From Candidatus Cloacimonadota bacterium (GTDB taxonomy: Bacteria > Cloacimonadota > Cloacimonadia > JGIOTU-2), in NCBI GenBank assembly GCA_030613025.1, contig JAUWMT010000009.1, forward strand, positions 1 through 64,000: a stretch of DNA of 64,000 bases, read 5' to 3'. Below the pieces are notes generated by a model, which saw only the letters and a program-made list of their open reading frames with translations, searched no databases and was not told the origin of the DNA. Shown here piece by piece: positions 228-16,499 of the stretch; position 1 is the stretch's first letter, and every line of letters begins with the position of its first letter. The translations under genes were made by a program, and so were the position numbers.

Positions 228-2282
228 CTATCTTGCCAATAACATTTTTCCGGTGTGAGAAACTTCGGGCGAGGTTACTTTGTAGAAATAAATACCATTT
301 GCTACATCATTACCACTCATATCTTTGCCGTTCCATGTTGCGTAACTTTCGGTCGGAGAATCTCCTTCATGTGATTCGAGTGTTGTTATAAATTGTCCTT
401 TGGCATTGTAAATTTTTACAGAAGCTTCACGTAGAGGTTTTGAGGATGAAAAGGAAATGTGAGTGTTGGCGGAAAACGGATTAGGTCGATTGGTAGAATA
501 TACTTTTGAACTTTCAAAATCTTCATCGATTCCATAAAAATACAAATTGATATTCACGATACAATAGTTTATATTTCCTCCAGTATTGTCACCCTGACCA
601 AGTATATAAGATCCGTAAGAATTATCATCAAGATAATAAAGGTACACTTTTCCCCATAAGTAATCAGAGCATTCAATATAATCAGCCATATATGGATATA
701 CGGTAATTTGGTTTGAAAAATCGAAATTTGGGTTATTAATGTCAGTCAGTTCCAACAGCTTATATGTTCCCCAACAACCCCTCCCTGCAAGATAAATAAT
801 TGGATGTTCAAGATATTCTGCATAGTTTGTATATCCAAGCTGAGCGAGGGTCGCGTATGTGGCATCAGACCAACAATGTAAATATTCGGAATTTATTGTT
901 GAAATTGTATTACTTTGCTTGTCACCATAACTACCTCCAGGATAGGCAACAACAACATATAAAATTGTATCATTTCCAGTAATTTTCCACGGTACGGATT
1001 GACCGGAGAATACATCGTTACCAGGCAAGTGTGGGATTTCTTCAAATGAGAATTCACTATTATCACTCCACCAAACGGATTCGATTTGCGGAAGAAAATA
1101 TTCCAAATAGTAGCGATATTTTGTCTCCGGGTCAGTATAGGAATAGTTCGCGAGTAATGTAGTATGCAAATTTCCATTATCATCGTAAAGTGCAGTATTA
1201 TTATAACCGAAAATATCAACATCGAGGTAGTCGGGAACAACTCCATTAAATTCAAATTGAGGTGTGTTTTCTACCTGATAAAATGCGTGTCCCGATCCCT
1301 GGTTGTGGCTATGAAGATTCGTATTATCCCAGGTCTCTCCGTAATCAAAAGATTCCCAAACGAACAATCCTTGATCAACTGGCATATCACCAAGGTCGCC
1401 CTTATTCCAAACGCAATAGCCGATCATGCTTACTTTACCCGGTGTGTTTTGATCAGTTGTAAAAGAAAGAGAACGCGGTCTGCATGATTTTTCTCTCCAT
1501 GAATACATCGGAGTAACTGTTGTCCAATTGTCTAAATTCAGTATTTGTGTCAGGTCAGCAGTTACTGTATTTTCAATATCCATGTACATAATTCTTACAT
1601 CATCACAGGGATATCCATGTGAATTGGGATTAATATTTTGAGAGATATGATAGATCCTGATCCAGTCATTTCCATTTGGAGAAGGTCCTGTGTATAATCT
1701 TGGCCAAAGATATTCATCAGGAAGGGGAGATGTAATAAAAGTGACAGATGACCAGAAACCGGGAATATTCAGAAGTGCGTAATCATCATAACATATGGTA
1801 CAGCCGGTATTTGAGCCGATTGGAATTTCATGCCATGAAGCTATACAGTTTCCAGTAGCAGGATGGAGTACAAGATCTCCATATCCTTGCAGTTCATTGT
1901 ATGTCGAGATTTCATCACAACCTTGAAGATTGCCGTTTTCGTCATAATAAGCCCAGTATTGTCGGCGTGTAGAGGTCGGTGAATCTGTTGCATGAAATGT
2001 AAGGTAAGTGCCACTTCCATTTTCGAGCTGTCTTTGTATGGGATAATTTGAATATCCACCCGGCATATAGTCATAGTAAGATGTCATTACGGTTGTCGGT
2101 TCAACGACAAATTCGTAATCGATCCAATCTGAGTGAGTTTCATCTGTGTAGGGCAAAATTATTGTTCCTCTGTCCAGTCCGGAAACAGGAATAAGTTTTC
2201 GGTCAGGTTCTTGAAGCTCTCCAGCGAATAAGCAGAAAGTAAGTAAAAGAAATGAAATTAAAATACTTGTTTTTCTATACAT
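228..2282 (-). CDS. exported Asp-box protein with type-A-like sorting tail (paralog A)
   Basis: This 684-aa protein has an N-terminal signal peptide (residues 1-20, ending near FAGE). A long beta-rich body contains an Asp-box-like motif, SFDYGETW, near residue 310. A FlgD-like Ig domain occupies the last ~90 residues (NRPNPF, then NDVANGIYFYKV, ending KMLLAR). Asp boxes and the repeated beta pattern suggest a sialidase-like beta-propeller, but no catalytic set can be assigned. It is homologous along its whole length to the next two genes; all three share the YYDYMPG block near residue 70. A separate terminator lies between it and the upstream paralog, so it is probably its own transcription unit. 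It is likely a surface or secreted protein exported by the type-IX-like route. The function of the body is unknown. Confidence 0.8.
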   Translation of the reverse strand: MYRKTSILISFLLLTFCLFAGELQEPDRKLIPVSGLDRGTIILPYTDETHSDWIDYEFVVEPTTVMTSYYDYMPGGYSNYPIQRQLENGSGTYLTFHATDSPTSTRRQYWAYYDENGNLQGCDEISTYNELQGYGDLVLHPATGNCIASWHEIPIGSNTGCTICYDDYALLNIPGFWSSVTFITSPLPDEYLWPRLYTGPSPNGNDWIRIYHISQNINPNSHGYPCDDVRIMYMDIENTVTADLTQILNLDNWTTVTPMYSWREKSCRPRSLSFTTDQNTPGKVSMIGYCVWNKGDLGDMPVDQGLFVWESFDYGETWDNTNLHSHNQGSGHAFYQVENTPQFEFNGVVPDYLDVDIFGYNNTALYDDNGNLHTTLLANYSYTDPETKYRYYLEYFLPQIESVWWSDNSEFSFEEIPHLPGNDVFSGQSVPWKITGNDTILYVVVAYPGGSYGDKQSNTISTINSEYLHCWSDATYATLAQLGYTNYAEYLEHPIIYLAGRGCWGTYKLLELTDINNPNFDFSNQITVYPYMADYIECSDYLWGKVYLYYLDDNSYGSYILGQGDNTGGNINYCIVNINLYFYGIDEDFESSKVYSTNRPNPFSANTHISFSSSKPLREASVKIYNAKGQFITTLESHEGDSPTESYATWNGKDMSGNDVANGIYFYKVTSPEVSHTGKMLLAR

Positions 2283-2436: not shown

Positions 2437-4518
2437 TTATCGAGTCAGCATCATTTTTTGGACTTTTGCCGAGCCATCGATTTCAACCTTATAAAGATAG
2501 ATTCCATTTGCTACATCTTTACCATTCAGGTCTTTACCGTTCCATGTTGCGTAACCCTCAGTGGGCTGCTCGCCGGCATTTACATCAAGTGTAGCCACAA
2601 GTTGCCCTCTTGTGTTATATACATTAACAGATGAGCGTTGATACGGTTTTTTGCTTGTAAAGTTGATAGTCGTAGATGAGAAGAAGGGATTGGGATAATT
2701 TGAAAGTGATGCAACAGGATTTGCATGTGCAGGATCAGCCGATACAGGTGGGAATTCAATTTTCACCATGCAATAATTGATCTGTCCGCCGGTATTTTGT
2801 CCTTGTTGAGCTTGAGCATAGGAACCAAAGGAGTTATCGTCGTAATAATAGATGTAGATCAATCCATGAGTTTCATCAATTATCTCAATCTTGTTATAGA
2901 TATTTGGGTAAACAGTTATTTCATCGGAAAAATCGTAGAGGGTGCTGTAAATATCAGTAAGTTCGATCGGATCTGACCAACTGTTGCCATTATTAGATGA
3001 AGCTGAGATGTAAAGAATGGGATGTTCTGCGTAAGCGATATAAGCAGGATCGCCATCTTCTGCCAATTGCACATAGGTGCCGTCAGCCCAAAGCTGAACC
3101 ATCCAATTCTTCTCTGTATTGATCGCATTTCTCTGGGCATTGTTATGGAAGATGGTTGCATCTCCGGGATATTTGTTGTAGGCAACCCTGGTATATAATA
3201 TGGTATCGTTACCCACTATTTCCCATGGCACATCTTTTCCTGTCCAAGGATCAATACCGGGGAATGCCGGCACATTGTGGTAATCCCAACTTGAGCCATC
3301 CCATACTGCTTCCGCCTGTGGAAGGAAATGATTGAAGTAATAACCGGCACCGGTATCGTCGGTATAGCCATATTGCTGCATATAGCAAATGTGAGCATTA
3401 CCGCTTGCATCATATTGTGCAGTATCATGCCAGCCGTAAGAGTCAACTTTTATAGTATCAATAATATTATCATTTTGATCTCTAAATTGTGGGACGTTCG
3501 CAACAGCATATATGTAATCATCAGGACCGTCACCATGAAGATTTGCTGTGTTCCAAGTAGTTCCATAGTCAAGGGATTCAAAGATATAGAAACCTTGATC
3601 AACGGGCATATCTCCCTGGTCTCCTTCCAGCCAGGAGCAGTAACCAACAATTGCAACTTTACCGGGATTGTTAAAGTCGATAGCAAAAGCTTGAGATTGT
3701 GGACGGCATGATTTTGCTCTCCAATAATACATGGGATTGACAGTAGTCCAGTTAGCGACATCGAGTACTGCTGTCAAATCGGCAGAAAAAGTATTCTCAA
3801 TGTCTATATACATGATTCTCGGTTCTTCACAAGGATGATTCCATGGATCACTTGTATAGTTTTTTGAGATGTGATAAAGGCGCACCCAGCCATCACCATT
3901 TGGAGAAGGTCCTACATAGAGATAGGGCCAGATGTATTGATCAGGAAGTGGTGAGGGAATAAAGGTAACAGCCGACCAGAAACCGGGAATGCCCAGAAGT
4001 GCATAGTCATCATAACAAATAGTTGAACCATAATTTGCAGCAGTTGGGTTTTCATGCCATGTAGCAAAGCAGTCACCTGTAGCAGGATGGACAGCTATAT
4101 CACCATATCCTTGAGTGAGATCATAAGTAGAAATAGTGGCCCAGTTTGCACCGATGCTACCTGCCGCATCTGCGTAAGCGTAATACTGACGGCGTGTAGC
4201 AGTGGTTGTGGCTGTGCCGAACCATGTCATATATGTGCCGGTACCATTATCGGTTTGTGCCTGTATTGGATAGCATTCATAAGAACCGGGCATATAGTCA
4301 TAGTACGATGTCATGATCGTTGTGGGTAGGGTGACAAATTCATAATCAGGTACCGGTGGATTGTCTCGGTGATTCGCTTCCGACAAGGGAATTAATTTAC
4401 TGACATCAATATTGGAAACAGCGATTTTATCCGAGCCGGCTGGATCCATAAATTCTGCATGAAGCGTTAGGGTAGTTACGAAAAAGCATAGGAGTAAAAG
4501 TAATCCTAATTTTTTCAT
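2437..4518 (-). CDS. exported Asp-box protein with type-A-like sorting tail (paralog B)
   Basis: This 693-aa protein has a signal peptide (residues 1-21, cleaved near LHAE) and a beta-rich body. It carries two Asp-box-like motifs, SLDYGTTW in the middle and SSNNGNSWS near residue 520. The last ~90 residues form a FlgD-like Ig domain (NYPNPFFSSTT, KDVANGIYLYKV, ending KMMLTR). It is clearly paralogous to its two neighbours and shares the YYDYMPG, VHPATGDC and ICYDDYALL blocks with paralog A. A strong terminator follows it, and another separates it from paralog C upstream, so it is likely transcribed alone. The fold is probably a sialidase-type propeller. Its ligand or enzymatic activity is unknown. 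Confidence 0.82.
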   Translation of the reverse strand: MKKLGLLLLLCFFVTTLTLHAEFMDPAGSDKIAVSNIDVSKLIPLSEANHRDNPPVPDYEFVTLPTTIMTSYYDYMPGSYECYPIQAQTDNGTGTYMTWFGTATTTATRRQYYAYADAAGSIGANWATISTYDLTQGYGDIAVHPATGDCFATWHENPTAANYGSTICYDDYALLGIPGFWSAVTFIPSPLPDQYIWPYLYVGPSPNGDGWVRLYHISKNYTSDPWNHPCEEPRIMYIDIENTFSADLTAVLDVANWTTVNPMYYWRAKSCRPQSQAFAIDFNNPGKVAIVGYCSWLEGDQGDMPVDQGFYIFESLDYGTTWNTANLHGDGPDDYIYAVANVPQFRDQNDNIIDTIKVDSYGWHDTAQYDASGNAHICYMQQYGYTDDTGAGYYFNHFLPQAEAVWDGSSWDYHNVPAFPGIDPWTGKDVPWEIVGNDTILYTRVAYNKYPGDATIFHNNAQRNAINTEKNWMVQLWADGTYVQLAEDGDPAYIAYAEHPILYISASSNNGNSWSDPIELTDIYSTLYDFSDEITVYPNIYNKIEIIDETHGLIYIYYYDDNSFGSYAQAQQGQNTGGQINYCMVKIEFPPVSADPAHANPVASLSNYPNPFFSSTTINFTSKKPYQRSSVNVYNTRGQLVATLDVNAGEQPTEGYATWNGKDLNGKDVANGIYLYKVEIDGSAKVQKMMLTR

Positions 4519-4700
4519 GTAAACCTCCGTTGGTTTTTTTTTGATAAGTTAACATCTTTAACCTTACTAAGAAAATAACAACTTGTGAAATCTTAATAAT
4601 TTATCAGATTTCGAATTCACATAAACACTTATATATAATATACGATTTAGTTAATTATTGTGGAAAATTTTTGTCAAGAAGTTGATTAGAAAAATAAAAA

Positions 4701-4727
4701 AAGCCCGCTCAAAGAACGAACGGGCTT
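4701..4727 (-). terminator. rho-independent terminator closing the TonB/PorV operon
   Basis: On the minus strand AAGCCCG pairs with CGGGCTT across a 13-nt loop, followed by a seven-T run. It sits 23 bases past the stop of the gene ending at 4750. It marks the end of the long unit that begins at the TonB-dependent receptor. Confidence 0.87.
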
Positions 4728-4749
4728 CTTATATAATGTTTGATTTTGC

Positions 4750-6918
4750 TTATCTGTTAAGCATCATCTTTTTGGCAATTGTTGCACCGTTGGTTTCCAC
4801 TTTATAGAAGTAGATACCATTTGCTACATCATTACCGTATTGATCAGTACCATCCCACATTGCGTGTCCTGCAGTATGAGAATCTGCAATAGTGTCAATG
4901 GATCTTACGAACTGACCTTTTGTGTTGTAGATAGTAACTTCTGCATTTTCCACACCAACTGAAGCAGAGAATTGGATCTGAGTGTGTGAGAAGAATGGAT
5001 TGGGAACATTGCGAAGTGTAAGAGATGCTGGTGGTTGTGGCTGAGAGGGATCGGAAGAAAGGAAAAGACCAGCAAAGTCGATCTTGAATGAGCAGTACAC
5101 CATTTCACCACCGGTTACGGGACCCATGTCTTGGATCGAGCTGCCGTAGTCATTATCATCAAAGAAGAATATGTCAATCTGTCCCCAGCCATCACCAAGG
5201 TCTTTAATAGTTGGATTAACATAAGGATACATGGTGATCATGTCTGCAAAACCGGGGAATGCTGTGCTGTAGATATCAGAGAGTTCAATTGGATAACTCC
5301 AGTTTTCACCATTATTATTGGTTGCAGAAACATAAAGAATTGGATGGGTTGCATAAGCATCATATCCAGGAATTGCATTTTCTGCGTAAAGTGTTTTTGT
5401 ACCACTATTCCAAATCTGGACCATCCAGGGATTTTCAAAGTTTACTGCATTGCATTGGAGATTTTCATGAAAGCCGACATCAGCAGCAATGGAGAATGGA
5501 TAATCCCTCCACGGGTAGATCAAAGTGTCACCGCTTACGGGTTCAATTTCCCATGGAACAGTGTGCCCGGACAATGCATCTACGCCGGGTAATTCAGGTA
5601 CTTCGCGGATTTCCCATGTACCGTCAGTTTTATACACAATTTCAGCTTCGTACTGGAACTCGTAATAAGGCCAGTAGGATGCACTGCCTGCTACAGTATC
5701 AACAGAGCATATCCAGAGCAACTGTGGCATGTGAATATTACCCTCGCTGTCAAAAGATGCAGTTTTGTGAGTTGAGTGCTGGTTGCCGGGCCACCCGATC
5801 CATACATGAAGTTCATCAAGAAGCACGTCATCAATAGTAAAGCCGGGTACGTTGTCAACGGCATAAAGTACATACTCATTCAACATACCGACATCTGTTT
5901 GATATGAATGGAAGTTTGCATAATCCCATGTTTCACCACCATCATAGGAATCCCATACATAATATCCTTGAGGTACAACTTCGAGACCGATCAATCCGCC
6001 AGTGTATCCTGCATAACCGAACATTGCGATATGTCCTGCATTGAATGGATCCACGGCATAGGAAGGATAAGGACGGCAGGAAAGACCTGTTGTAGGATCT
6101 GACCAGTCACGTGCAATATTCACGGGACCACCCCAGTTGGTCTTATCAAGCATAATATTAAGGTCGCCCCAATTCCAGGAATCTTCAGGAACATCGATCC
6201 AGCGTATAATATCATGTTCGATCACGCCGTCGGGATTCTGCTGGCTGGTCTGATATACGCGGTAGTTACCGGTTGTTGCATAATCAGGAGCCATTCCAAT
6301 ATTCATATAGGGCCAGATATATTCGTCAATGTATGGGGCTGGTTGATCAAAGGTAACAGGGGTTTTCCAGAAACCTGGAATATGCAGAAGAGCATAGTCG
6401 TCAAAGGAAACTCGGGTGTTGGTATCTTCGGGGGTGGAAGCACCCATAATATCGTGCCACGAGGCGATAGGATCGCCGGAAGCCGGATGCATGGCCAAAC
6501 CCGGATAACCCTGCCATGTGTCGGAAGTTGTGATAGTAGCATAGTCAATCACACCGCTTGGTTGAACGTATGCCCAATACAATCTTCTGTTGACAGTCGT
6601 GGATGCGCGACCGTGGAATACAAAATATACTCCACCGAATGCATCAGGTTGCCTCTTTATTGGACGTCCACAATAACTACCGGGCATGTAGTCATAGTAG
6701 TTAGTAAAACCTGCGAGAGTTGTAGGTTCCTGAATGAATTCCCATTGAGGAACCTGGAAGTTGCCCTTGTTAAGATTTTCTGTGGCAACTTTTAGATGCC
6801 CTGGTGCTTCGCGAGGAACAAGAGTATTATTGTTGTACTCTGGTTGTTGAACATCATTAGCCCAAACCATTCCTGCGAGCACGAGGAGCATCACGCTAAG
6901 CATAGCAATTTTTTTCAT
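4750..6918 (-). CDS. exported Asp-box protein with type-A-like sorting tail (paralog C)
   Basis: This 722-aa protein is the longest of the three tandem paralogs. It has a signal peptide (1-20, cleaved near VWAND), Asp-box-like motifs SYDGGETW and ATNNNGENWS, and a FlgD-like Ig domain at the end (NVPNPFFSHTQ, NDVANGIYFYKV, ending KKMMLNR). Only about 33 bases separate its start from the PorV-like gene upstream, with no terminator between. It is therefore probably the last gene of the receptor-ExbBD-TonB-PorV operon, unlike paralogs A and B. Co-transcription with a PorV-family barrel fits an exported substrate of a type-IX-like machine. The molecular function of the propeller-like body is unknown. 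Confidence 0.83.
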   Translation of the reverse strand: MKKIAMLSVMLLVLAGMVWANDVQQPEYNNNTLVPREAPGHLKVATENLNKGNFQVPQWEFIQEPTTLAGFTNYYDYMPGSYCGRPIKRQPDAFGGVYFVFHGRASTTVNRRLYWAYVQPSGVIDYATITTSDTWQGYPGLAMHPASGDPIASWHDIMGASTPEDTNTRVSFDDYALLHIPGFWKTPVTFDQPAPYIDEYIWPYMNIGMAPDYATTGNYRVYQTSQQNPDGVIEHDIIRWIDVPEDSWNWGDLNIMLDKTNWGGPVNIARDWSDPTTGLSCRPYPSYAVDPFNAGHIAMFGYAGYTGGLIGLEVVPQGYYVWDSYDGGETWDYANFHSYQTDVGMLNEYVLYAVDNVPGFTIDDVLLDELHVWIGWPGNQHSTHKTASFDSEGNIHMPQLLWICSVDTVAGSASYWPYYEFQYEAEIVYKTDGTWEIREVPELPGVDALSGHTVPWEIEPVSGDTLIYPWRDYPFSIAADVGFHENLQCNAVNFENPWMVQIWNSGTKTLYAENAIPGYDAYATHPILYVSATNNNGENWSYPIELSDIYSTAFPGFADMITMYPYVNPTIKDLGDGWGQIDIFFFDDNDYGSSIQDMGPVTGGEMVYCSFKIDFAGLFLSSDPSQPQPPASLTLRNVPNPFFSHTQIQFSASVGVENAEVTIYNTKGQFVRSIDTIADSHTAGHAMWDGTDQYGNDVANGIYFYKVETNGATIAKKMMLNR

Positions 6919-6951
6919 TTTGATTAATCCTCCATCATTATTGATTAATTA

Positions 6952-7989
6952 TTAAAATTTCATTTTTAAAGAAAGACGTATAGGTCCGGTAAGAAATTTA
7001 CCATCCATCTTTTCTTCTAAGCTACCAAAAGGAGTATAAGCAGCATCAATATCCATTATAGCAAAGGAAGTAGGAAGTTTCCAGCCAAGTCCAAAAGAAG
7101 CTTTTTGAACATCAAGATTAAATTGATATCCACCGCGAAGGAAGAAGGTTCCGATTCTGTATTCAAGTCCGGCATTATAAGTTTCAAGACGGTCAACACA
7201 GTTATCAATTTGGAATACTGCATTAATTGACTGCATCTTTGTTTCAAGAATGTTCATAGCAACACCAAGAGAGAAATTCATTGGAAGTACGAATGAGAGT
7301 TCTTCCGGGTCTTCATCAACAAGACCGTCTCCATCATTGTCCAAAAGGTCAAAGGGGTCTTCATCAATAAGTCCATCGGCATCATTATCCAATGTGTATT
7401 TCATTTCAGGTCCGAAGTTTCTTAAGCTCATACCAATCGTAAGATCTTGCCAGCCAGTATTATAGAGAGTGCCCAGATCGACGCCCCAACCGTTTACATC
7501 ATATTCATCGAGATTTTGCCTGAGATATTTGAACGTGACACCAAGAGAGAATTTGTCAGTAAGCATAGTCGCATAGGAAAGCCCAGCCATCATATCGCTA
7601 CAGGTGAACTGTTCCCCATTAGGACCGAACTCATCATCAGTTGTCACATCCATCCAGTCCATATACAATATCGAACCGTTGATACCGAACACTCCGAGAG
7701 AGGTCGGAAAAGCAAAGGTCAGATAATCATAATTTATATCTGCAACATAGCGAGTGTGGTTTAAAAATAATTCACTGCCATTTGTATATGCGAGACCGGC
7801 GACATTCCAATAGGTTGAGGAAGCGCCTTTCGTATAAGCTGTGTATGCTTCACCCATGCCGATTGCACGGGCGTCAACACCGATTTTGAGGAACTGCATA
7901 CCAGCAGTACCGACTTTAGCAAAAATATCAGCTTGAACCAAGGTTGGTATAAGTAAAAGGGCCAATATTATAAAAATTATCCTTTTCAT
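6952..7989 (-). CDS. PorV/PorQ-family outer-membrane beta-barrel protein
   Basis: PorV-family proteins are outer-membrane barrels that shuttle cargo in type IX secretion. This one has a signal peptide (MKRIIFIILALLL, cleaved near VQAD) and then the family's N-terminal block with KVGTAGMQFLKIG and DARAIGMGEAY, in which the gene product lines up with PorV/UPF0164 proteins. Amphipathic strands run to the end, LSLKMKF. The listed ORF begins at a GTG at 7998, but the AAAGGTGG ribosome site overlaps that codon, so I start at the ATG at 7989 (345 aa). An odd insert at about residues 196-228 has two copies of a DNDxDGLxDED pattern, resembling calcium-binding type-3 repeats. It lies between an exported protein gene and paralog C in the same operon. 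Confidence 0.8.
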   Translation of the reverse strand: MKRIIFIILALLLIPTLVQADIFAKVGTAGMQFLKIGVDARAIGMGEAYTAYTKGASSTYWNVAGLAYTNGSELFLNHTRYVADINYDYLTFAFPTSLGVFGINGSILYMDWMDVTTDDEFGPNGEQFTCSDMMAGLSYATMLTDKFSLGVTFKYLRQNLDEYDVNGWGVDLGTLYNTGWQDLTIGMSLRNFGPEMKYTLDNDADGLIDEDPFDLLDNDGDGLVDEDPEELSFVLPMNFSLGVAMNILETKMQSINAVFQIDNCVDRLETYNAGLEYRIGTFFLRGGYQFNLDVQKASFGLGWKLPTSFAIMDIDAAYTPFGSLEEKMDGKFLTGPIRLSLKMKF

Positions 7990-8000
7990 GTTAACCACCT

Positions 8001-11000
8001 TTATTTAATTAAAACAAGTTTATTGACTTTAATATTACCAGTCGCATGATCTTCTACGGAATAAAGGTACACACCACTTGCAATGATCTGATCATGTTTC
8101 GAGAGGAGATCCCAGGGTTCTATTCCACTTTGTGCAATACCGGTATGAGTTGCTTTGCTAGGATTGATAACATCCACAGTTGACATACCATCATGTTTAA
8201 TTTCATCAACAAGGTCACCGGCAAGTGTATATATCTTGATAGTACATTTTTCAGGAAGATTTACAAACCAGATACGCTTACTTCTATCACCGGTTTCGTC
8301 TTTGTCACGTCGTCCATCAAACTTGCTTTGTCCGAGGTAGGGATTTGGTACGACATAAACATTTTCGAGATTGGAAGCAGCAGATGGACCGGCAAAGATC
8401 GTTATTCGGTTTCCATCTTTACCTGATTCAAGAGATGGAATGTCCAGTGAAGGAATACCTCTGTCAAAGGAGGTGACGGCAATGTAGTTTTCTACCCCTT
8501 TTTCAGGATAGAGTATTTCACTAATATAGTATCTGCGTGAAAGTCTGTTTTTCTTCAAGGTGAGCAATCCTTCAGGATGTGTCTGACCAAGATGTCCGGG
8601 AAATGGCATCAACTTATCATCATAGAGGTCGATATAAAGATCGTCATCTATTACGGGATTTTTTAAAAGAAGCGCATTTGCCCGCTTTTCAATTTTTGTA
8701 AGTACTGGATGAGCAGGACTAGGAACATAAGGAGGATCGACATCAGCACTATCCAGCACATTATAAAGCGGAATTCCATACACTTCATCACCAGTGGTAA
8801 TATCTATATAAGAATAAAGAGAATCCATCTTAAAGTAGTCTGTCCAATAAACAGTACTGTCGGCAGTATAGATAATATTTTCAGTAGAATCAGTGCTTAC
8901 AGTATATTCCATGGGAAGTCCATTATTAATACCGAGCTGACCGCCGTAATACACATTCATACTGTCAACCGGAAGATTCATACAGACATCATAGTCTCTC
9001 ATATCCTGAGGAGTATCGACCTTATCCCAGCGGTCCCATTCCATATAGGCATCCTGTTCACCGGAATTGGAAGCTTTCCAGAGTGTGTAGCCCTGGAAAT
9101 CATGGCGAAGTCGGTAAGTTGTCCACGGATTTACTTTTGCATTAAAGTTATAACTACCACCATTCCAATGATCAGGATCGAATTCTTCAGGGAAATATCC
9201 ATAATGAGCTAACTGCTCATCATATTTATCAATATAGCTATCAAGATAGGGAATCGTGTTCTGCCAGCCGACAAATTCTTTGAAGATTGTCATTCTATCG
9301 ACTGTGAATTCTGAGCGGTTATCCCAATAGACAAAAACAGTGTCACCATTCAAGGATTGGTCAAGTGTCATGTTTGGAATATCAGGTGGTCCGGGTGCTT
9401 CATAGTGTTTAAATGTATCGGGGAGTACAACTGTTGTAAGAGTCTGCGCTTCTCCATACAGTTTTTTAGAGAAAACCGCAGTTCTTTTGAGATCTTCAAC
9501 ATCATCACCGGGGAATAACGCAATAACGATTTTCATTGTTTCGTATGGTTTTAGGTTCCAGCTTGAATCTGTAGGTGCAGTGAAACCTTGCATATCTCCA
9601 TAGAATGCAAAGAGATATCGTGTGTCGCAAGGATCATTAATTTGAGCATTGGGATCTTCGCGAAGTGAAATGTACTTTGTTGGAGCAAAGGAATTTGTAT
9701 TATGGGTCATCAACCAATACTTTTCATTTCGCTCCGCACCTGGAACATTATGGTTGGGACCATCACCAACTTCCCATGTCCAGCATGCGAAATCCAACTG
9801 TTCGGGATCAGGAGAACACACACGAGAACCGACATATCCTGTGGTTAGTCCGCCATCCTGGTCGGCATCATAGGTATAGGCAATCTCCCATCCTTCACCG
9901 GGAATATAACTGCTTATGTCATCAGAATAAGTATTACCCCATGCCTGCGGACCTACATCACAATCCATATACACAGCCATTGCACAGTCAAAAAGAGTGT
10001 CAACAGGGTTCATGTTTGTTATATCAAATTCAACATATATCAAATTTTTAATATATTCATAACTCCATTGGAAACTCACCTGGCGTACTCGAATATTATT
10101 TGGTATATGATTTTGAGGATAGGACTGTGCTTCCTGGACTCTTTCTCCAGGGGTTCCAAAGGGGCTGTAGTCATAATAGTAGCCAAGAAAATCTTGTTCC
10201 GAGATCGGGTACCCATCCTCATCGCGAAGTCCATCACCATCATCGTCCTGTACTTGGGCAAAGTTATATATACTGTCAGGATCGACATATCCCAATTCTA
10301 GGAAACCAAGAGGGAACCAGATGTCAATGTTTGTAAGAATTTCATCCGGTTCACATTGCATTCTAGGTACCGAACCTCTGAACTCATTATCGCCAGGTAA
10401 AAAGGTGCTGAATTGGGAAGGTACTGTACTTCTGAATGGGAATGCAAAGCCGGCAGGATCTTCATCGATCTTACCATCACCATCATCATCTACACCTGCT
10501 TGCTGGTCACGAATTGATGATTCGATAACACCATCCTTAAGGTTGTAGACATCATACATTGGTCCAAGAGCATATGCTTCCAATGGGTTATATGCCGGCA
10601 GGAATTCATAGTAATCATTATCACCGTCAAAGCCGACAGTCACAAGAGTATCAATAACTCTACCTAATCCCATGTCAGAAGTACCGGTCGTTTCTTGTGC
10701 GGCGTCTTGCCAGTACAGCATCTGTCCAAAGTCATTTCTACGTTGTTTACAAGCACCGAACCACAAAGCACCCTGGTAGAGATAGTCAATACCAGAACCT
10801 CCCGGATATTCCAGTGAGGGCCATTGTGGAACAATGTCATCACCGGATCCAAAGAAACCATAGTTGCTTACCCGCAACCATATGTTTCCGACATCGTGAT
10901 AGCGAGTGATATCAAGTCTTTTATCTGCGCCGGAGCCGCCACCTACTGATCGACTCCAAAGAAATGTACTTGAGAGCATCAGCATGAGGAGAACTGCCAG

Positions 11001-11033
11001 AAAAACAGGCAGGAAACCGATTTTAGAGCGCAT
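8001..11033 (-). CDS. large exported protein with FlgD-like C-terminal domain
   Basis: This is about 1010 aa when started at the ATG at 11033, which has a good AGGAGG site six bases upstream; the listed start lies 13 codons earlier. A signal peptide (RSKIGFLPVFLAVLL) is followed by a long beta-rich, Tyr- and Asp-rich body with no enzyme motif that I know. Two acidic repeats, DDDGDGKIDED and DDDGDGLRDEDG, resemble calcium-binding type-3 motifs. The C terminus has VVPNPYLG followed by an Ig-like fold and ends NKLVLIK, like the sorting tails of the neighbouring proteins. It sits between TonB and the PorV-like gene in the operon, with 11-48-base gaps. It is probably a surface partner of the receptor/PorV pair. 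The family is unassigned. Confidence 0.75.
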   Translation of the reverse strand: MRSKIGFLPVFLAVLLMLMLSSTFLWSRSVGGGSGADKRLDITRYHDVGNIWLRVSNYGFFGSGDDIVPQWPSLEYPGGSGIDYLYQGALWFGACKQRRNDFGQMLYWQDAAQETTGTSDMGLGRVIDTLVTVGFDGDNDYYEFLPAYNPLEAYALGPMYDVYNLKDGVIESSIRDQQAGVDDDGDGKIDEDPAGFAFPFRSTVPSQFSTFLPGDNEFRGSVPRMQCEPDEILTNIDIWFPLGFLELGYVDPDSIYNFAQVQDDDGDGLRDEDGYPISEQDFLGYYYDYSPFGTPGERVQEAQSYPQNHIPNNIRVRQVSFQWSYEYIKNLIYVEFDITNMNPVDTLFDCAMAVYMDCDVGPQAWGNTYSDDISSYIPGEGWEIAYTYDADQDGGLTTGYVGSRVCSPDPEQLDFACWTWEVGDGPNHNVPGAERNEKYWLMTHNTNSFAPTKYISLREDPNAQINDPCDTRYLFAFYGDMQGFTAPTDSSWNLKPYETMKIVIALFPGDDVEDLKRTAVFSKKLYGEAQTLTTVVLPDTFKHYEAPGPPDIPNMTLDQSLNGDTVFVYWDNRSEFTVDRMTIFKEFVGWQNTIPYLDSYIDKYDEQLAHYGYFPEEFDPDHWNGGSYNFNAKVNPWTTYRLRHDFQGYTLWKASNSGEQDAYMEWDRWDKVDTPQDMRDYDVCMNLPVDSMNVYYGGQLGINNGLPMEYTVSTDSTENIIYTADSTVYWTDYFKMDSLYSYIDITTGDEVYGIPLYNVLDSADVDPPYVPSPAHPVLTKIEKRANALLLKNPVIDDDLYIDLYDDKLMPFPGHLGQTHPEGLLTLKKNRLSRRYYISEILYPEKGVENYIAVTSFDRGIPSLDIPSLESGKDGNRITIFAGPSAASNLENVYVVPNPYLGQSKFDGRRDKDETGDRSKRIWFVNLPEKCTIKIYTLAGDLVDEIKHDGMSTVDVINPSKATHTGIAQSGIEPWDLLSKHDQIIASGVYLYSVEDHATGNIKVNKLVLIK

Positions 11034-11081
11034 ATTACCTCCTACTTTTTTCATTAAATTTTTATTTTTCATATTATAGTT

Positions 11082-11720
11082 TTATAACTCAAATTTAATT
11101 GGGAAAGTTACCCAAACCGCAACAGGTTTTCCCTGGTTTTTTGCGGGAATAAATTTCCATTGTTTGACTGCCAGAATTGCTGCTTCGTCCAAACCGCCGG
11201 GACCCGATTGCAGACTTTTAACAATTTCGACAGCACCAACATTGCCTTCTTCAAATACTTCTGCACGCACGATCACTTCACCTTCAATACCAGCATTTTT
11301 GGCAAACTGAGAATATTCCGGTCTTACTTTTTTAATAGGAATAGGTATTTCTTCGTGAACAACGAATCTTGGAGTAGTGCCTTCTCTGGAAACAGGGGGT
11401 GGTTTGGTAAGGTCGAGAGTGGTGGGTCCGATGGTTTCAATTTCTTCAATATCTTCATCATCACTCATGTCACTTTCTTCAATGGTTAAAGGAATGATAG
11501 GTTTTACTTCTTCGGGTGGTTTGAATTTCTGTCGCACTTCAGGTGGTATCTCAATGGTTTGGATCTCTTTTGCTCTATGCTGATAGGGCTTCACTTCGAT
11601 CTTTGGGAATACCAAAAACGTGAAAAGCAGCAAAAGAAGGGCGAGGGATAATGATTTCTCATAAAAAGAACTCGCTACGTCTTTCCAATCATAATGAGTG
11701 TTAGCAGATTTATTTTGCAT
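11082..11720 (-). CDS. tonB: TonB-family energy transducer
   Basis: TonB spans the periplasm and transmits proton-motive force from ExbB/ExbD to outer-membrane receptors. The 212-aa protein has a single membrane segment at about residues 24-41 (LSLALLLLLFTFLVF) and a Pro- and acid-rich linker (PPEEVKPIIPLT, EESDMSDDEDIEE). The C-terminal TonB domain (about 130-212) contains VRPEYSQFAKNAGIEGEV and AVKQWKFIPAKNQGKPV, typical of the family. It follows two exbD genes and the exbB and receptor genes on the same strand, so the whole energising unit is co-encoded with its receptor. The acidic run in the linker is unusual but within the variation of this region. Confidence 0.9.
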   Translation of the reverse strand: MQNKSANTHYDWKDVASSFYEKSLSLALLLLLFTFLVFPKIEVKPYQHRAKEIQTIEIPPEVRQKFKPPEEVKPIIPLTIEESDMSDDEDIEEIETIGPTTLDLTKPPPVSREGTTPRFVVHEEIPIPIKKVRPEYSQFAKNAGIEGEVIVRAEVFEEGNVGAVEIVKSLQSGPGGLDEAAILAVKQWKFIPAKNQGKPVAVWVTFPIKFEL

Positions 11721-11751
11721 AATATAAAACCTTTAGTTTATTTATGTTACG

Positions 11752-12159
11752 TTACCTAGATTTCCGTGCTTCAAAGGATATTCTCAAAGCATTTGCTCTT
11801 TTGAGCTCGTTCATCACATCTACCATTATGCCGTATTCAGTATCTCTGTCGGTTCGAAAACTGGTGATCATAGCAGGATTTTCTGCGATCTTACTTTGCA
11901 TCACGAACTGTATCTGATCGACCTGTGTTGCAAAATCATCAATGGAGATAAGACCGGAACGGCTGACATAAATTGTGGTTGCATTCCGTCTGTTGATCTT
12001 CTGAATGGTTTGTGCACGAGGAAGTTCGACTTTCAGACCTTTTTCTTTTACAAAGGTAGTGGATACCATAAAGAATATCAGCAGCAGGAAGGCAATATCG
12101 GACATTGAAGCATTAGGTATTTCAGAACCGATTTTTGTTTTTCTTAGTATCTTTGCCAT
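11752..12159 (-). CDS. exbD: ExbD/TolR-family biopolymer transport protein (second copy)
   Basis: ExbD proteins form the inner-membrane stator with ExbB and couple proton flow to TonB. This 135-aa protein has one transmembrane helix at about residues 18-38. It contains MSDIAFLLLIFFMVSTTF, in which the Asp is the conserved proton-carrying residue. A periplasmic ExbD domain follows. It lies 8 bases downstream of another exbD, and the two differ clearly in sequence (KGLKVELPRA here, EGLGLILPPH in the other). Paired exbD genes are common in Bacteroidota-type TonB operons. Confidence 0.92.
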   Translation of the reverse strand: MAKILRKTKIGSEIPNASMSDIAFLLLIFFMVSTTFVKEKGLKVELPRAQTIQKINRRNATTIYVSRSGLISIDDFATQVDQIQFVMQSKIAENPAMITSFRTDRDTEYGIMVDVMNELKRANALRISFEARKSR

Positions 12160-12167
12160 AGGACCTC

Positions 12168-12581
12168 TTATCTGGTAGAAAGTGAAACGGTTTGTGCGCC
12201 TGCAGCGAGCAATCTATCAAGTGCACACACCATCATTTCGTATTTTGCTCTTCTGTCAGCTTCAAGCACAAATACCATTTTAGGATTCGCAACAATTTTT
12301 TCGTTTACAATACGTTCAAGCTCGACAGGAGTTACAATCACATCGTCAACAGCTATATCACCTCTTCTATTCACCTTGATCTTTGTAAGGTTTTCCTGCT
12401 TGATCTTTACTATTTTACCACCTGATTCGGTGTGCGGAGGAAGTATCAATCCAAGTCCTTCTTTCACATCAAATTTTGTAGTAACCAGGAAAAAGACAAG
12501 CAAAAGAAAAGCCACATCAGCCATTGATGCTGTCGGGATCTTAGGGTTGAGACGTGGTTTTTTTGCTTTTACAATATTCAT
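12168..12581 (-). CDS. exbD: ExbD/TolR-family biopolymer transport protein (first copy)
   Basis: This is a 137-aa inner-membrane protein with one transmembrane helix (about 19-40) holding the conserved Asp in MADVAFLLLVFFLVTT. The periplasmic domain begins KFDVKEGLGLILPP. It works with ExbB and TonB to energise the outer-membrane receptor. It is the first of two adjacent exbD genes, 22 bases after exbB and 8 bases before the second copy, so the two subunits are probably made together and may form a hetero-oligomeric stator. Confidence 0.92.
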   Translation of the reverse strand: MNIVKAKKPRLNPKIPTASMADVAFLLLVFFLVTTKFDVKEGLGLILPPHTESGGKIVKIKQENLTKIKVNRRGDIAVDDVIVTPVELERIVNEKIVANPKMVFVLEADRRAKYEMMVCALDRLLAAGAQTVSLSTR

Positions 12582-12603
12582 GCTAACTCAATTCCTTGCA
12601 TTG

Positions 12604-13410
12604 TTATTTAGCTTCCATTAAGGTTTCGGTCAGTTTTTCCGAACCTGTCTGCATATCAATGATCAGACCATCAATAATTGAAACAAAGAAGTTATTGAAT
12701 AACTGAATTGGGATAGCAACAGCCAAACCTGATGCTGTGGTGATCAAGGCGACTGAAATACCGCTTGCCACAATTGTGGGTTCAACTTCACCGGCAGCTG
12801 CGATAGCTTCAAATGCCTGGATCATACCAATAACTGTTCCCAAGAAACCAAGCATGGGAGCAAGGTTAATGGTTGTAGCCAGAGCAATAAGTCCTTTTTC
12901 AAGGAAAGACATCTCAAGGATTGCAGCATGTTCGACTGCTTTTTCCACTTCTTCCGGTCCCTTGTTTGCTTTAAGCAATCCAGCATGAAGGACGCTGGCT
13001 ACGGGTCCACGGGTTTTTGCACAAAGTTCTGTTGCTTCGTCGAATTCTTTTTCTTTTACTAAGGGGAGAAGCTTTTCTAAGAAATCGTGAACAGAAATTT
13101 TTGCATAACGAAGGGAAATGATCTTCCAAATTGAAGTGGCTAATGCCCAGATAACCAAAATAAGCATTGGGTACATGACCCATCCACCTTTGATAAAGAG
13201 GTCAACTAAGCCGCTTCCGACAATTTTTCGTGCAAAGGCTTCAATACCTCCGGCTTGGATTGTTTCTTCTACAACAACTGCTTCTTCTTCGACTATAGCT
13301 GTTGTATCTTCTTCAGTTGTAACTGCTTCCTGCGCACAGAGGTTGCCGACGAACATGCCAACTAACAATAATGCCAAGAATAGAATTCTGAATTTCTTAT
13401 TGGTATACAC
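12604..13410 (-). CDS. exbB: ExbB/TolQ/MotA-family proton channel with signal-peptide-like N terminus
   Basis: ExbB forms the pentameric proton channel that drives TonB. I start at the GTG at 13410, which has AAGGAGG seven bases upstream, giving 268 aa. The listed ATG overlaps the end of the receptor gene and lacks such a site. The protein has a hydrophobic signal-like segment (RILFLALLLVGMFVG), then an acidic periplasmic stretch rich in Glu and Val (about 25-50), then three membrane helices. The MotA/TolQ/ExbB core includes LAPMLGFLGTVIGMI and ALITTASGLAVAIP. The long N-terminal extension resembles the longer ExbB variants of some proteobacteria. It follows the receptor gene by 20 bases. Confidence 0.9.
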   Translation of the reverse strand: MYTNKKFRILFLALLLVGMFVGNLCAQEAVTTEEDTTAIVEEEAVVVEETIQAGGIEAFARKIVGSGLVDLFIKGGWVMYPMLILVIWALATSIWKIISLRYAKISVHDFLEKLLPLVKEKEFDEATELCAKTRGPVASVLHAGLLKANKGPEEVEKAVEHAAILEMSFLEKGLIALATTINLAPMLGFLGTVIGMIQAFEAIAAAGEVEPTIVASGISVALITTASGLAVAIPIQLFNNFFVSIIDGLIIDMQTGSEKLTETLMEAK

Positions 13411-13430
13411 TTGTATATCCTCCTTGATTT

Positions 13431-16400
13431 TTACCATTCAAATTTAACACCTAAGGAAATTCTTCGACCTACGGAATAAATATTGGGATTTGACAGACCT
13501 GCAAGGTATATTGCAGCGCCGGTGACATCTTCGCCATCTTCTTTAATAATTTTACCGTCGTGGTTCAAATCATAGATATCCCAGTATTCAAAAGTTCCTT
13601 TATCTGTTGTTTTACCAGTTTTGGCGTTTACATAATTGATATTCAAAGTATTAAATAAATTTGATACATTAACGAAGATACTGAATTTTGTATCCCCAAA
13701 GAGATTAAAAGCTTTACTTACTCTAAGATCTGCAGAATTTGTCCAGGGAAGTCTAACTGAGTTCGTTTCAAGTGGAACATTGCTATCAGGATCAGGAGTA
13801 ACAGGTGTATAAGGAGCACCGGATTGAATTCTCCAAAGCAAGCTTGCATAGAACTTATCAGGCATCTTTAAACCAAGGAGATAAAATTCTTCATCCTCAG
13901 GGATCCTGAAATCTAGATTCACAGATGCGTTATGACGAATATCCCAGGTAAGAGGGAATTCGCGAAGGTTATCACGAGCTTCATGTGCACCGGAATTACG
14001 ACCATTTGCCCATGAATAGGTGTAACCAATATTAAATCCCCAGAAATTACTAAAGCGTTTACGAAGTGTTAATTCTACGCCGCGAGCGCTTCCGTAATCT
14101 TCGGAGATATATAACCAGTATTGTCTTCCTGCCTCAGCAATACTATCCGGTAGAAGTGAATAGTCATTATCTAAGACACTAACAAGATTATAAATATTCT
14201 TATAGAAAAGAGTCACGTCGAGGAGATAATCCTCACCCATTTGATGTTCGACACCAACCTCATAAGTAATGGTTGTTTCGGGTTTAAGGTTTGGATTACC
14301 AACGTTCGTGCCGACCTGTCCGGCTTCCGGAGTTGAGCTTGTGAACACATACTGCATTGGAGGAAGCTGGCTCTGGTAGTTATAGGCAAAGTGTAGCACG
14401 TCTTTTTCTGTGATAGGATGAGATACACCGAGACGGGGACTGACCATAATTTGGAATTTATTAACATTCTCGGTTTTGGTCATAAAACCACCGCTACCAT
14501 CATCAATGATAAAGGTAACCTTATTCCATTGTGCATCGACATATTCACCAGTGGTATCGCTTTTCACCTGATATTTATCTCCAAGATACCAGAAGTCAAA
14601 ACGCATACCGGCATTAACGATCATACCTTCCCACTCCATTTTATCCTGCAGATAATAAGCGCCCTGCCATGGATATGCTTTATAACCGTCTATTTCGCCA
14701 CCTGCAAAATGAACGCCATCCTGAAAATCTTCTGCGGTATATATTTTGCCACCCCAACCAAGATAACCATAGAACGCCAGAGAATCGACAGGTATTCCCA
14801 TGCCGGTTGTATCAACGTCCTTACCTCTAAGATAATTCGGTAATCGTTTCGCATCGTCAATTTCCCAGGGATTGTTGAGACGATCCTTATAAATCTCATT
14901 AAATTTAATCTCAAGACCGGTTTTTACCTGGTGAATTTCATCGATCTGATAAGTGAAATCACTTCGAAGTGTATATGTTATTGTTTGATCCTTCCAGAAA
15001 TTGCCGGCTTGAGATCCCGGATTAGAGAAGAAAGGAATTGGTTGAGGGTTATTAAGCTGATCAAGATATTCCACACGTTCGTTTACATGTGTCCCAGGAA
15101 TATGGACACCGAAATTATTTTGGTCTGGATTCTCAATCCATGTAGGATTGTTCCAATCAGTATTTTGTGGTTCAAAATACCAATCTCTGTCCACACCAGA
15201 GTTCAGATCAATGTTTGTCTCAAAACGGCTTGTACGGATTGTATAGAACATTTTTGGGGAAAGAGTATGATCCCAAGTTAAGGCAAATTGGTTATGCTCG
15301 GTAGTCCAGTGGTTCGTGTAACGGAGTGATAATCTATTAAAGTATCCAAAGGGGAGATTAGTTTCTCTGTCACCTCGAACTGCAGCAGTTAATTTAACTG
15401 TAGGACTGACCTGGAACTTTGTTTTAAAGTTTGCCTGATAGTTATTAATATACCTGTCACCAACATCAAACAACCATACCTTTTCTCTGCCTTCACCTAT
15501 AGAATTGATTTGATTGAAGTAGTGCAAGGAGTCTCCAAAGCCAAAATAAGATAATCGTCGCAATGGTTCGAATAAAGGATTGTCTTCCTTGAGGGTATAA
15601 TAATCTTTGTATCGACCATCCGTCCATGCACTGGTAACATTAAGATAGAAAGTGAATCTATCTCTTTGATATTGTGAACCGGCAGGAATAATGGGTCCGC
15701 CAAGTGCGAATTTGACCAGGTCTTTATTGCTTCCTTCATCAAAAATGTGGTCTGAGCTTACTTCAAATTTTCCTGAGTATTGAGGACCACCGGACTTGGT
15801 AACAAGATTAATAATAGCCGATTGTGCATTACCGAATTCTGCGGTAAAGCCACCTGTCTGAACCGACATGTCGCTCACAGCGTCCATATCGAGTTGCATT
15901 CCAAACCCATGATCAACAGGATTGGAAACGGACATACCGTCAACAGTATATACAACCTCACCTGAACGACCTCCTCTGATGTGGAGATTTTCTCCAGATC
16001 CAACAGCACCAGCAGTAACAGCAACGATTTCCTGAATGGACTGCACCGGCATCTGTTTAATGTCTTCAGCGGTAATGATCTTCTCTGATCCGGTGACATC
16101 CCTTTCAACAAGTTTCTGCTGTGCTTTCACTGTGATACCTTCGATTTCGGTATCAGTACTTTTGAGTTCAAAGTTCAGTGTTGTGGTCAAATCAAGATTG
16201 ATCTTGACATTTGTGATAGTTACTGCCTGATATCCCATTCGGAATGCTTGGATCTCATAGGTGCCAGGAGGAATATTTATAACCATGAAACGACCCTTGT
16301 CGTCCGTGGAAGCACCAATCTGTTTCTCAATAATGATCACATTTGCACCGATAACGGGTTCTCCCGAATCTACATCAGTAACACGGCCTGCAAGTTTACC

Positions 16401-16475
16401 TGTTGTACCTGCATTAAGCACGGCTACCAGTAGAAAAAGCACAACTAATATAAAAGCAAATACGTACCTTTTCAT
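13431..16475 (-). CDS. TonB-dependent outer-membrane receptor with carboxypeptidase-like N-terminal domain
   Basis: TonB-dependent receptors import large or scarce solutes across the outer membrane. I start at the ATG at 16475, which has AGGGAGA just upstream; the listed start is five codons earlier. About 1014 aa: signal peptide, then a carboxypeptidase-regulatory-like domain (about 27-110, KLAGRVTDVDSGEPVIGANV), then the plug (MPVQSIQEIVAVTAGA, LHIRGGRSGEVVYTVDGM), then a 22-strand-type barrel ending SLGVKFEW. An EF-hand-like loop, DLNHDGKIIKEDGED, is present near the C terminus. There is no adjacent SusD-like lipoprotein. It heads the operon that carries its own ExbB, ExbD pair and TonB. 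The substrate is unknown. Confidence 0.9.
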   Translation of the reverse strand: MKRYVFAFILVVLFLLVAVLNAGTTGKLAGRVTDVDSGEPVIGANVIIIEKQIGASTDDKGRFMVINIPPGTYEIQAFRMGYQAVTITNVKINLDLTTTLNFELKSTDTEIEGITVKAQQKLVERDVTGSEKIITAEDIKQMPVQSIQEIVAVTAGAVGSGENLHIRGGRSGEVVYTVDGMSVSNPVDHGFGMQLDMDAVSDMSVQTGGFTAEFGNAQSAIINLVTKSGGPQYSGKFEVSSDHIFDEGSNKDLVKFALGGPIIPAGSQYQRDRFTFYLNVTSAWTDGRYKDYYTLKEDNPLFEPLRRLSYFGFGDSLHYFNQINSIGEGREKVWLFDVGDRYINNYQANFKTKFQVSPTVKLTAAVRGDRETNLPFGYFNRLSLRYTNHWTTEHNQFALTWDHTLSPKMFYTIRTSRFETNIDLNSGVDRDWYFEPQNTDWNNPTWIENPDQNNFGVHIPGTHVNERVEYLDQLNNPQPIPFFSNPGSQAGNFWKDQTITYTLRSDFTYQIDEIHQVKTGLEIKFNEIYKDRLNNPWEIDDAKRLPNYLRGKDVDTTGMGIPVDSLAFYGYLGWGGKIYTAEDFQDGVHFAGGEIDGYKAYPWQGAYYLQDKMEWEGMIVNAGMRFDFWYLGDKYQVKSDTTGEYVDAQWNKVTFIIDDGSGGFMTKTENVNKFQIMVSPRLGVSHPITEKDVLHFAYNYQSQLPPMQYVFTSSTPEAGQVGTNVGNPNLKPETTITYEVGVEHQMGEDYLLDVTLFYKNIYNLVSVLDNDYSLLPDSIAEAGRQYWLYISEDYGSARGVELTLRKRFSNFWGFNIGYTYSWANGRNSGAHEARDNLREFPLTWDIRHNASVNLDFRIPEDEEFYLLGLKMPDKFYASLLWRIQSGAPYTPVTPDPDSNVPLETNSVRLPWTNSADLRVSKAFNLFGDTKFSIFVNVSNLFNTLNINYVNAKTGKTTDKGTFEYWDIYDLNHDGKIIKEDGEDVTGAAIYLAGLSNPNIYSVGRRISLGVKFEW

Positions 16476-16499
16476 AGCTTCTCCCTTCATGAAAAATTG

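Follow-up and report, generated by a model that had tools for sequence, protein, structure and literature searches.

TonB-dependent transporters with surface lids have been described, as in BtuBG (PMC10404256). In Flavobacterium johnsoniae, cargo of the type IX secretion system (T9SS) that bears a type B C-terminal domain (CTD) is paired with a neighboring SprF/PorP-like shuttle barrel, probably as a static complex (PMC12618676), and T9SS itself is driven in Bacteroidota by GldLM using the proton-motive force (PMC11205867). For the phylum Cloacimonadota, a passage of PMC11285876 gives T9SS as possibly present; in PMC8542988, the term "type IX" occurs only in a cited T9SS review, and its main text mentions neither TonB nor ExbB. 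Here, we analyzed an operon in a window of 64,000 nucleotides, meaning the whole stretch of DNA under study (positions 1 to 64,000 of contig JAUWMT010000009.1, handled here as contig C25), from a metagenome-assembled genome (MAG) of a Candidatus Cloacimonadota bacterium (GCA_030613025.1; 2.83 Mb, 98% complete). An earlier reading of the sequence alone (the sequence-only reading) had noted eight consecutive genes on one strand, and all eight were confirmed, lying on the minus strand in the order TonB-dependent receptor (TBDR), ExbB, ExbD, ExbD, TonB, a large predicted exported protein (X), a PorV-family barrel, and a protein with a sorting tail (S). We established the gene content, order, conservation, and co-evolution of this operon, as well as the family and fold assignments of its products.

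Its parts are each of known kinds, and the novelty lies in a TBDR with a T9SS-type partner and a PorV anchor, which is apparently undescribed; in the open-licence literature, we found no account of the operon, nor of a TBDR paired with PorV or a T9SS partner. The operon resembles SusCD and BtuBG in that a TBDR powered by ExbBD-TonB is encoded with a large partner (surface-exposed in the known systems and predicted to be so for X), and its receptor has a CarboxypepD_reg-like N-terminal extension, as in SusC. However, X has neither SusD nor BtuG kinship and no identified lipoprotein anchor, but a T9SS-type CTD and an adjoining PorV barrel, and the receptor scored 68 bits against the SusC/RagA model TIGR04056, far under the cutoff of 368. 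By the features tested (SusC subfamily score and SusD partner), the operon lies outside SusCD, yet it could work in a SusCD-like way. The X-PorV pair is also similar to the type B pair of F. johnsoniae, in which a CTD-bearing surface protein stands next to its own FadL-like barrel and the pair sets the destination of the cargo. It differs in that the barrel is of the PorV rather than the PorP/SprF family, the CTD of X is nearer to type A (PorU/PorZ), and both proteins are tied here to a TBDR and a motor.

ExbB-ExbD-ExbD-TonB is a common gene order for TonB blocks, and the unusual part is therefore the TBDR-X-PorV module.

The arrangement is a core feature of the phylum, with a near-invariant gene order. 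A profile of X detected the protein in 98 of 104 Cloacimonadota genomes that were at least 80% complete, and nearly all named matches to X came from Candidatus Cloacimonadota; the closest named relative was Ca. Celaenobacter antarcticus (~85% identity in X), with other Cloacimonadota MAGs equally close. The first twenty relatives read had the same operon order wherever the contig extends far enough. Among 80 named loci, X was directly preceded by TonB in 69 and directly followed by PorV in 71. The other flanks were contig ends, save in L048, where TonB and X are separated by an unassigned reading frame of 145 aa, and in L065, L099, and L117, which are apparently second copies of X or X-PorV. 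The complete series from TBDR to PorV was found in 51 of the named loci, S being the next gene in 41 of these, and median gaps across it were 8.5-25 nt in relatives from the phylum. The sequence-only reading had named the gene order of related genomes as its check, a different order counting against it; the same order proved to be the rule. A chance origin of the arrangement is excluded because the gene order is conserved across the phylum. Two loci labelled Armatimonadota (L054 and L110) had the Cloacimonadota gene order and 53-54% identity in X, and these are probably mislabelled MAGs.

The order of the flanking metabolic genes was likewise conserved through much of the phylum, so some of the linkage is probably just inherited. 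This would suit ordinary clustering, in which a TonB energizer became fixed beside unrelated export genes, and uptake and display are functionally separate. Inertia, however, would not be expected to yield either the co-evolving blocks described below or the independent recurrence of TBDR-X-PorV in varied orders in other phyla, and we regard such clustering as a rather improbable explanation.

In other phyla, the profile of X gave distant matches in 71 of 284 genomes. Neighborhoods were read at twenty loci among the best-scoring ones, picked without regard to the neighbors of X. A TBDR was in a cluster with X at all twenty, and a PorV-family barrel was near X at 19, the exception (L215) being a contig that ends just after X. 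The relatives aligned with X in N-terminal, middle, and C-terminal blocks in 19 cases and in the last two blocks only in one; since the aligned blocks span two or three regions, these are relatives of X and not just proteins sharing its tail. The gene orders of TBDR, X, and PorV varied among these phyla, and ExbB-ExbD-ExbD-TonB stood between TBDR and X at three of the twenty loci (L215, L218, and L219). These loci indicate that the module is TBDR-X-PorV, with the motor as an addition in Cloacimonadota and in a few further lineages. S was more variable and less tightly linked, without a full-length counterpart at most of the other-phylum loci; it was excluded from the core module because nearly all its matches outside Cloacimonadota span the sorting tail alone.

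Co-evolution was assessed from pairwise distances at 31 loci, the aminotransferase gene standing in for the species tree as a proxy. With shared ancestry incompletely removed by this proxy, the distances of TBDR, X, and PorV co-varied strongly (partial r 0.79, 0.82, and 0.71; z 6.2 to 6.5), as did those of ExbB, the two ExbDs, and TonB (partial r 0.51 to 0.84), and values between these blocks were lower (0.03 to 0.50). The pattern points to two co-evolving blocks, {TBDR, X, PorV} and {ExbB, ExbD, ExbD, TonB}, and fits one complex in the outer membrane with the motor as a second, separate one.

In addition, X and the barrel share a loop pattern of the calcium-binding type, D.D.DG..DED. Among Cloacimonadota proteins, 95 of 95 X and 84 of 86 operon PorV sequences contained it, in a set that counts some genomes twice. 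The pattern was absent from all TBDR, ExbB, TonB, and S proteins tested, and from the PorV proteins of other phyla. Elsewhere in the window and in the genome's other PorV regions, it was carried only by a 1410-aa paralogue of X. In the operon barrel, two DxDxDGxxDED loops lie within an insert (residues 199-235) between two barrel strands, and counting strands back from the C-terminus would place this insert on the extracellular side.

We propose, with a probability of roughly 0.5, that X, delivered to the surface by T9SS, is a partner of the TBDR, with its own PorV anchor and the TonB motor of the operon, in a SusCD- or BtuBG-like system. X (and S) would be exported over the inner membrane by Sec, and the CTD of X would direct it through SprA across the outer membrane. 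The cognate PorV-family barrel would receive X and, instead of passing it on, would retain it, with X anchored beside or over the TBDR. There, X may take up a ligand, perhaps via its central beta domain, and then deliver it to the TBDR, through which ExbB-ExbD-ExbD-TonB would power the import. T9SS cargo and a PorV anchor would then replace the surface lipoprotein of SusCD and BtuBG. We infer that X is exported, that the barrel retains it, and that it touches the receptor, along with the transport, the ligand, and the combination of transporter-lid, cargo-plus-barrel, and motor principles into one mechanism. A coupling of uptake to surface display had been suggested before and is partly supported: the invariant order, the co-evolution of TBDR, X, and PorV, and the occurrence of X-PorV with a TBDR in other phyla all fit it.

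Seven of the eight operon proteins had clear families in Pfam and curated profile scans, X being the exception. X had no Pfam match, and a PDB sequence search with its profile gave none. Its CTD region matched the PorZ C-terminus (NF052228) weakly (1.2e-5), and the rest of the protein was without a profile match. By fold search, the CTD resembles those of PorU, PorZ, and NucA; the X model (mean pLDDT 71.5) matched PorU and PorZ structures along short stretches, taken as their C-terminal domains, and also the short substrate chain of a T9SS complex (8glk_D, TMt 0.67). Matches to polysaccharide lyase and dextran dextrinase entries (E 2e-4 to 1e-2, ~220-270 columns) were assigned to the central beta part of the predicted structure and give hints of carbohydrate binding. 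A viral fold library returned fibronectin-like and tail-domain entries only, which were discarded.

Several observations weigh against X as a receptor partner. Its tail was not recognized at cutoff by Pfam or TIGR04183, with no Por_Secre_tail match; the carbohydrate-like fold matches are weak, and the model is poor for about residues 40-320. No search run related X to SusD or BtuG, and none of the 50 listed PDB fold matches of X was a SusD. Paralogues of X stand beside S genes without a TBDR, with PorV in L099 and up to the contig end in L117, and X and PorV can thus work without one. The main tension is that X (median identity 51.7%) is better conserved than its receptor (40.2%) and roughly on a par with the purM-like gene, a level that a structural or housekeeping role would explain as well. 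In particular, X could form a structural surface coat (S-layer-like or adhesive), displayed by T9SS and anchored by PorV, its receptor and motor being co-transcribed for dosage without a complex. The near-universal, housekeeping-like conservation of X, its acidic calcium-type loops, and its paralogues away from any TBDR would all suit a coat. Nevertheless, other phyla, mostly without the motor and housekeeping genes, keep X with TBDR and PorV in the sampled loci, and the TBDR co-evolves with both, which makes a mere coat unlikely.

Paralogues of X were seen in several settings. Three second copies lie away from the TonB block: that of L099 has PorV and Asp-box proteins around it, that of L117 has Asp-box proteins upstream to the contig end, and that of L065 has no recognized PorV. 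The 1410-aa paralogue of this genome (contig C59, L125:5092-9324, +) combines a single DxDxDGxxDED loop with a lamin tail domain and a weak T9SS tail, and adjoins no TBDR, TonB, or PorV.

The operon barrel belongs to the PorV/PorQ family (NF033709, cutoff 90 bits). With 80 bits for PorV and 107 bits for PorQ, it falls below the respective equivalog cutoffs of 250 and 220 bits. Its model (mean pLDDT 76) matched T9SS PorV structures best (8gl6_F 1.6e-15, 6h3i_F 2.0e-11), well ahead of FadL and BamG. The assignment made in the sequence-only reading thus stands for the family and the fold, but not for the curated PorV or PorQ equivalogs, so the statement that PorV carries type IX cargo extends to this barrel by analogy only. 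Eight further PorV-family loci of this genome were read, and none has a TBDR. At one site (contig C2, L121:5400-9773, -), a further barrel-plus-cargo pair was seen, in which the PorV-family barrel adjoins an inactivated, M6-like metalloprotease that has a sorting tail.

A further comparison is offered by BamG-BamH of Bacteroidota, in which a FadL-type barrel holds a large surface protein over a second barrel, and both of which occur in most phyla of the Fibrobacterota-Chlorobiota-Bacteroidota (FCB) group (PMC12611786, PMC12578637). By likeness, the PorV barrel and X could form an outer canopy that aids assembly of the large receptor, as an outer-membrane biogenesis device; the weak match of the barrel to the BamG model NF053685 (5e-4) and the housekeeping-like conservation of X agree with this. 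However, in score (194 vs 19 bits) as in structure, the barrel stands far closer to the PorV family than to BamG; BamH is a lipoprotein, unlike X with its T9SS-type tail; and the partner barrel is BamA and not a TBDR, for which no role in the β-barrel assembly machinery is known. We consider a biogenesis function very improbable.

The surroundings of the operon resemble the T9SS of Bacteroidota in the family and fold of the barrel (NF033709; 8gl6, 6h3i), the SprA gene in the window, and a candidate PorU-like sortase in the genome, and differ in the sub-cutoff PorV/PorQ scores and in the GldM result. SprA lies 7–13 kb from the operon and was found in 22 of 25 relatives; in several close relatives, it shares one contig with the operon. 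Fifteen genes for C25-type (gingipain/PorU-like) peptidases were found in this genome. The best of them (contig C40, L127:9982-15033, -) resembles PorU, at a score below the cutoff (310.6 of 420 bits), and lies next to a further PorV-family barrel. GldM had no match in the Cloacimonadota genomes searched with one Bacteroidota-built model (TIGR03517), GldL, GldK, GldN, PorE, and PorW not being searched; the same search matched two genomes of other phyla (E 4.8e-118 and 3.4e-108).

The energizing set encoded with the receptor is full, as plug and barrel, ExbB-type channel, ExbD, and TonB_C were all above the Pfam cutoffs. Its ExbB is the sole PF01618 protein (ExbB/TolQ/MotA family) found genome-wide, next to two TonB_C genes and three plug domains. 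The second TonB_C gene (273-aa frame; contig C65:13416-13655, +) lies away from the operon, and several congeners have one too. A single protein of this family alongside SprA and a candidate PorU-like sortase, the unmatched GldM in Cloacimonadota against its detection in two other-phylum genomes, and the position of the motor genes between receptor and X-PorV throughout the phylum would be in line with a motor that also, or mainly, powers T9SS. SprA, PorV-family barrels, and CTD cargo would then be used without GldLM, and cargo such as X would be released by TonB pushing through the TBDR or some other partner in the outer membrane. Against such sharing, a single Bacteroidota-built model could miss a divergent motor, the motor block lacks strong co-evolution with X or PorV, and most other-phylum TBDR-X-PorV loci have no adjoining motor genes; we hold it to be quite unlikely. 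It appears slightly less probable still that one motor powers both uptake and T9SS in place of GldLM, in an operon that physically joins the two with the TBDR partner on a dedicated PorV barrel.

The features of the window are given in Table 1. Intergenic gaps along the operon, from TBDR to S, were -7, 22, 8, 31, 9, 2, and 33 nt. For the receptor, the start at 16475 noted earlier is preferable to the reading frame opening at 16490, because the Shine-Dalgarno-like GAAGGGAG sits immediately ahead of 16475. The exported protein X, put at ~1010 aa in the sequence-only reading, has 1023 aa as called. The single terminator proposed at the operon end was borne out: although terminator-like sites in the window were not above chance in total (13 vs 11.1 +/- 3.5), the hairpin directly after S is by far the strongest of them. 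A weak hairpin with a T-run (16516-16500) lies between TBDR and the upstream housekeeping genes. An Rfam scan of the window found no riboswitch or other RNA, and hence no clue to the ligand. S had Pfam matches to FlgD_ig (2.4e-10) and Por_Secre_tail (8.4e-7), and scored as T9SS type A cargo (TIGR04183, 35.1 bits; cutoff 23). Its earlier label as an Asp-box protein is backed by two exact motifs, SYDGGETW and TNNNGENW, but not by any Pfam BNR/sialidase match.

Table 1. Operon genes and other features of the window, with positions, strand, and basis of assignment.
Feature	Position	Strand	Basis
TBDR, ~1015-1019 aa; CarboxypepD_reg domain, plug, 22-strand-type barrel	13431..16490	-	PF13715, PF07715 (9.9e-11), PF00593 (1.2e-22)
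ExbB/TolQ-family proton channel	12604..13437	-	PF01618 1.3e-30
ExbD, first copy	12168..12581	-	PF02472 9.6e-22
ExbD, second copy	11752..12159	-	PF02472 4.8e-23
TonB	11082..11720	-	PF03544 (TonB_C) 4.3e-20
X, 1023 aa, predicted exported; two DxDxDGxxDED loops, T9SS-type CTD	8001..11072	-	
PorV/PorQ-family 14-strand-type barrel	6952..7998	-	NF033709 193.7 bits; fold match 8gl6_F
S, 722 aa; Asp-box motifs, FlgD_ig / T9SS type A sorting tail	4750..6918	-	PF13860, PF18962, TIGR04183
Intrinsic terminator after S, 14-pair stem and T-run	4698..4730	-	
S paralogue, 693 aa, sorting tail, beyond terminator	2437..4518	-	
Second S paralogue, 684 aa, sorting tail, beyond terminator	228..2282	-	
SprA, T9SS channel, outside operon	23643..29924	+	TIGR04189 584 bits (cutoff 200); SprA_N 2.2e-33
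Upstream genes: lipoate/biotin ligase-family, AIR-synthase-family (purM-like), pfkB kinase		same as operon	
Other upstream genes: aminotransferase, glycyl-tRNA synthetase-like		same as operon	Names from reading of translation

If X is indeed a T9SS-delivered partner of the receptor, SusCD-like uptake complexes would have a counterpart, across several phyla, in which type IX secretion delivers the surface partner and a barrel of its own retains it. The operon is a concrete candidate for the main energized receptor of Cloacimonadota, which are common in anoxic lakes and in anaerobic digesters. Additionally, the powering of type IX secretion where GldM was not found would become a testable question.

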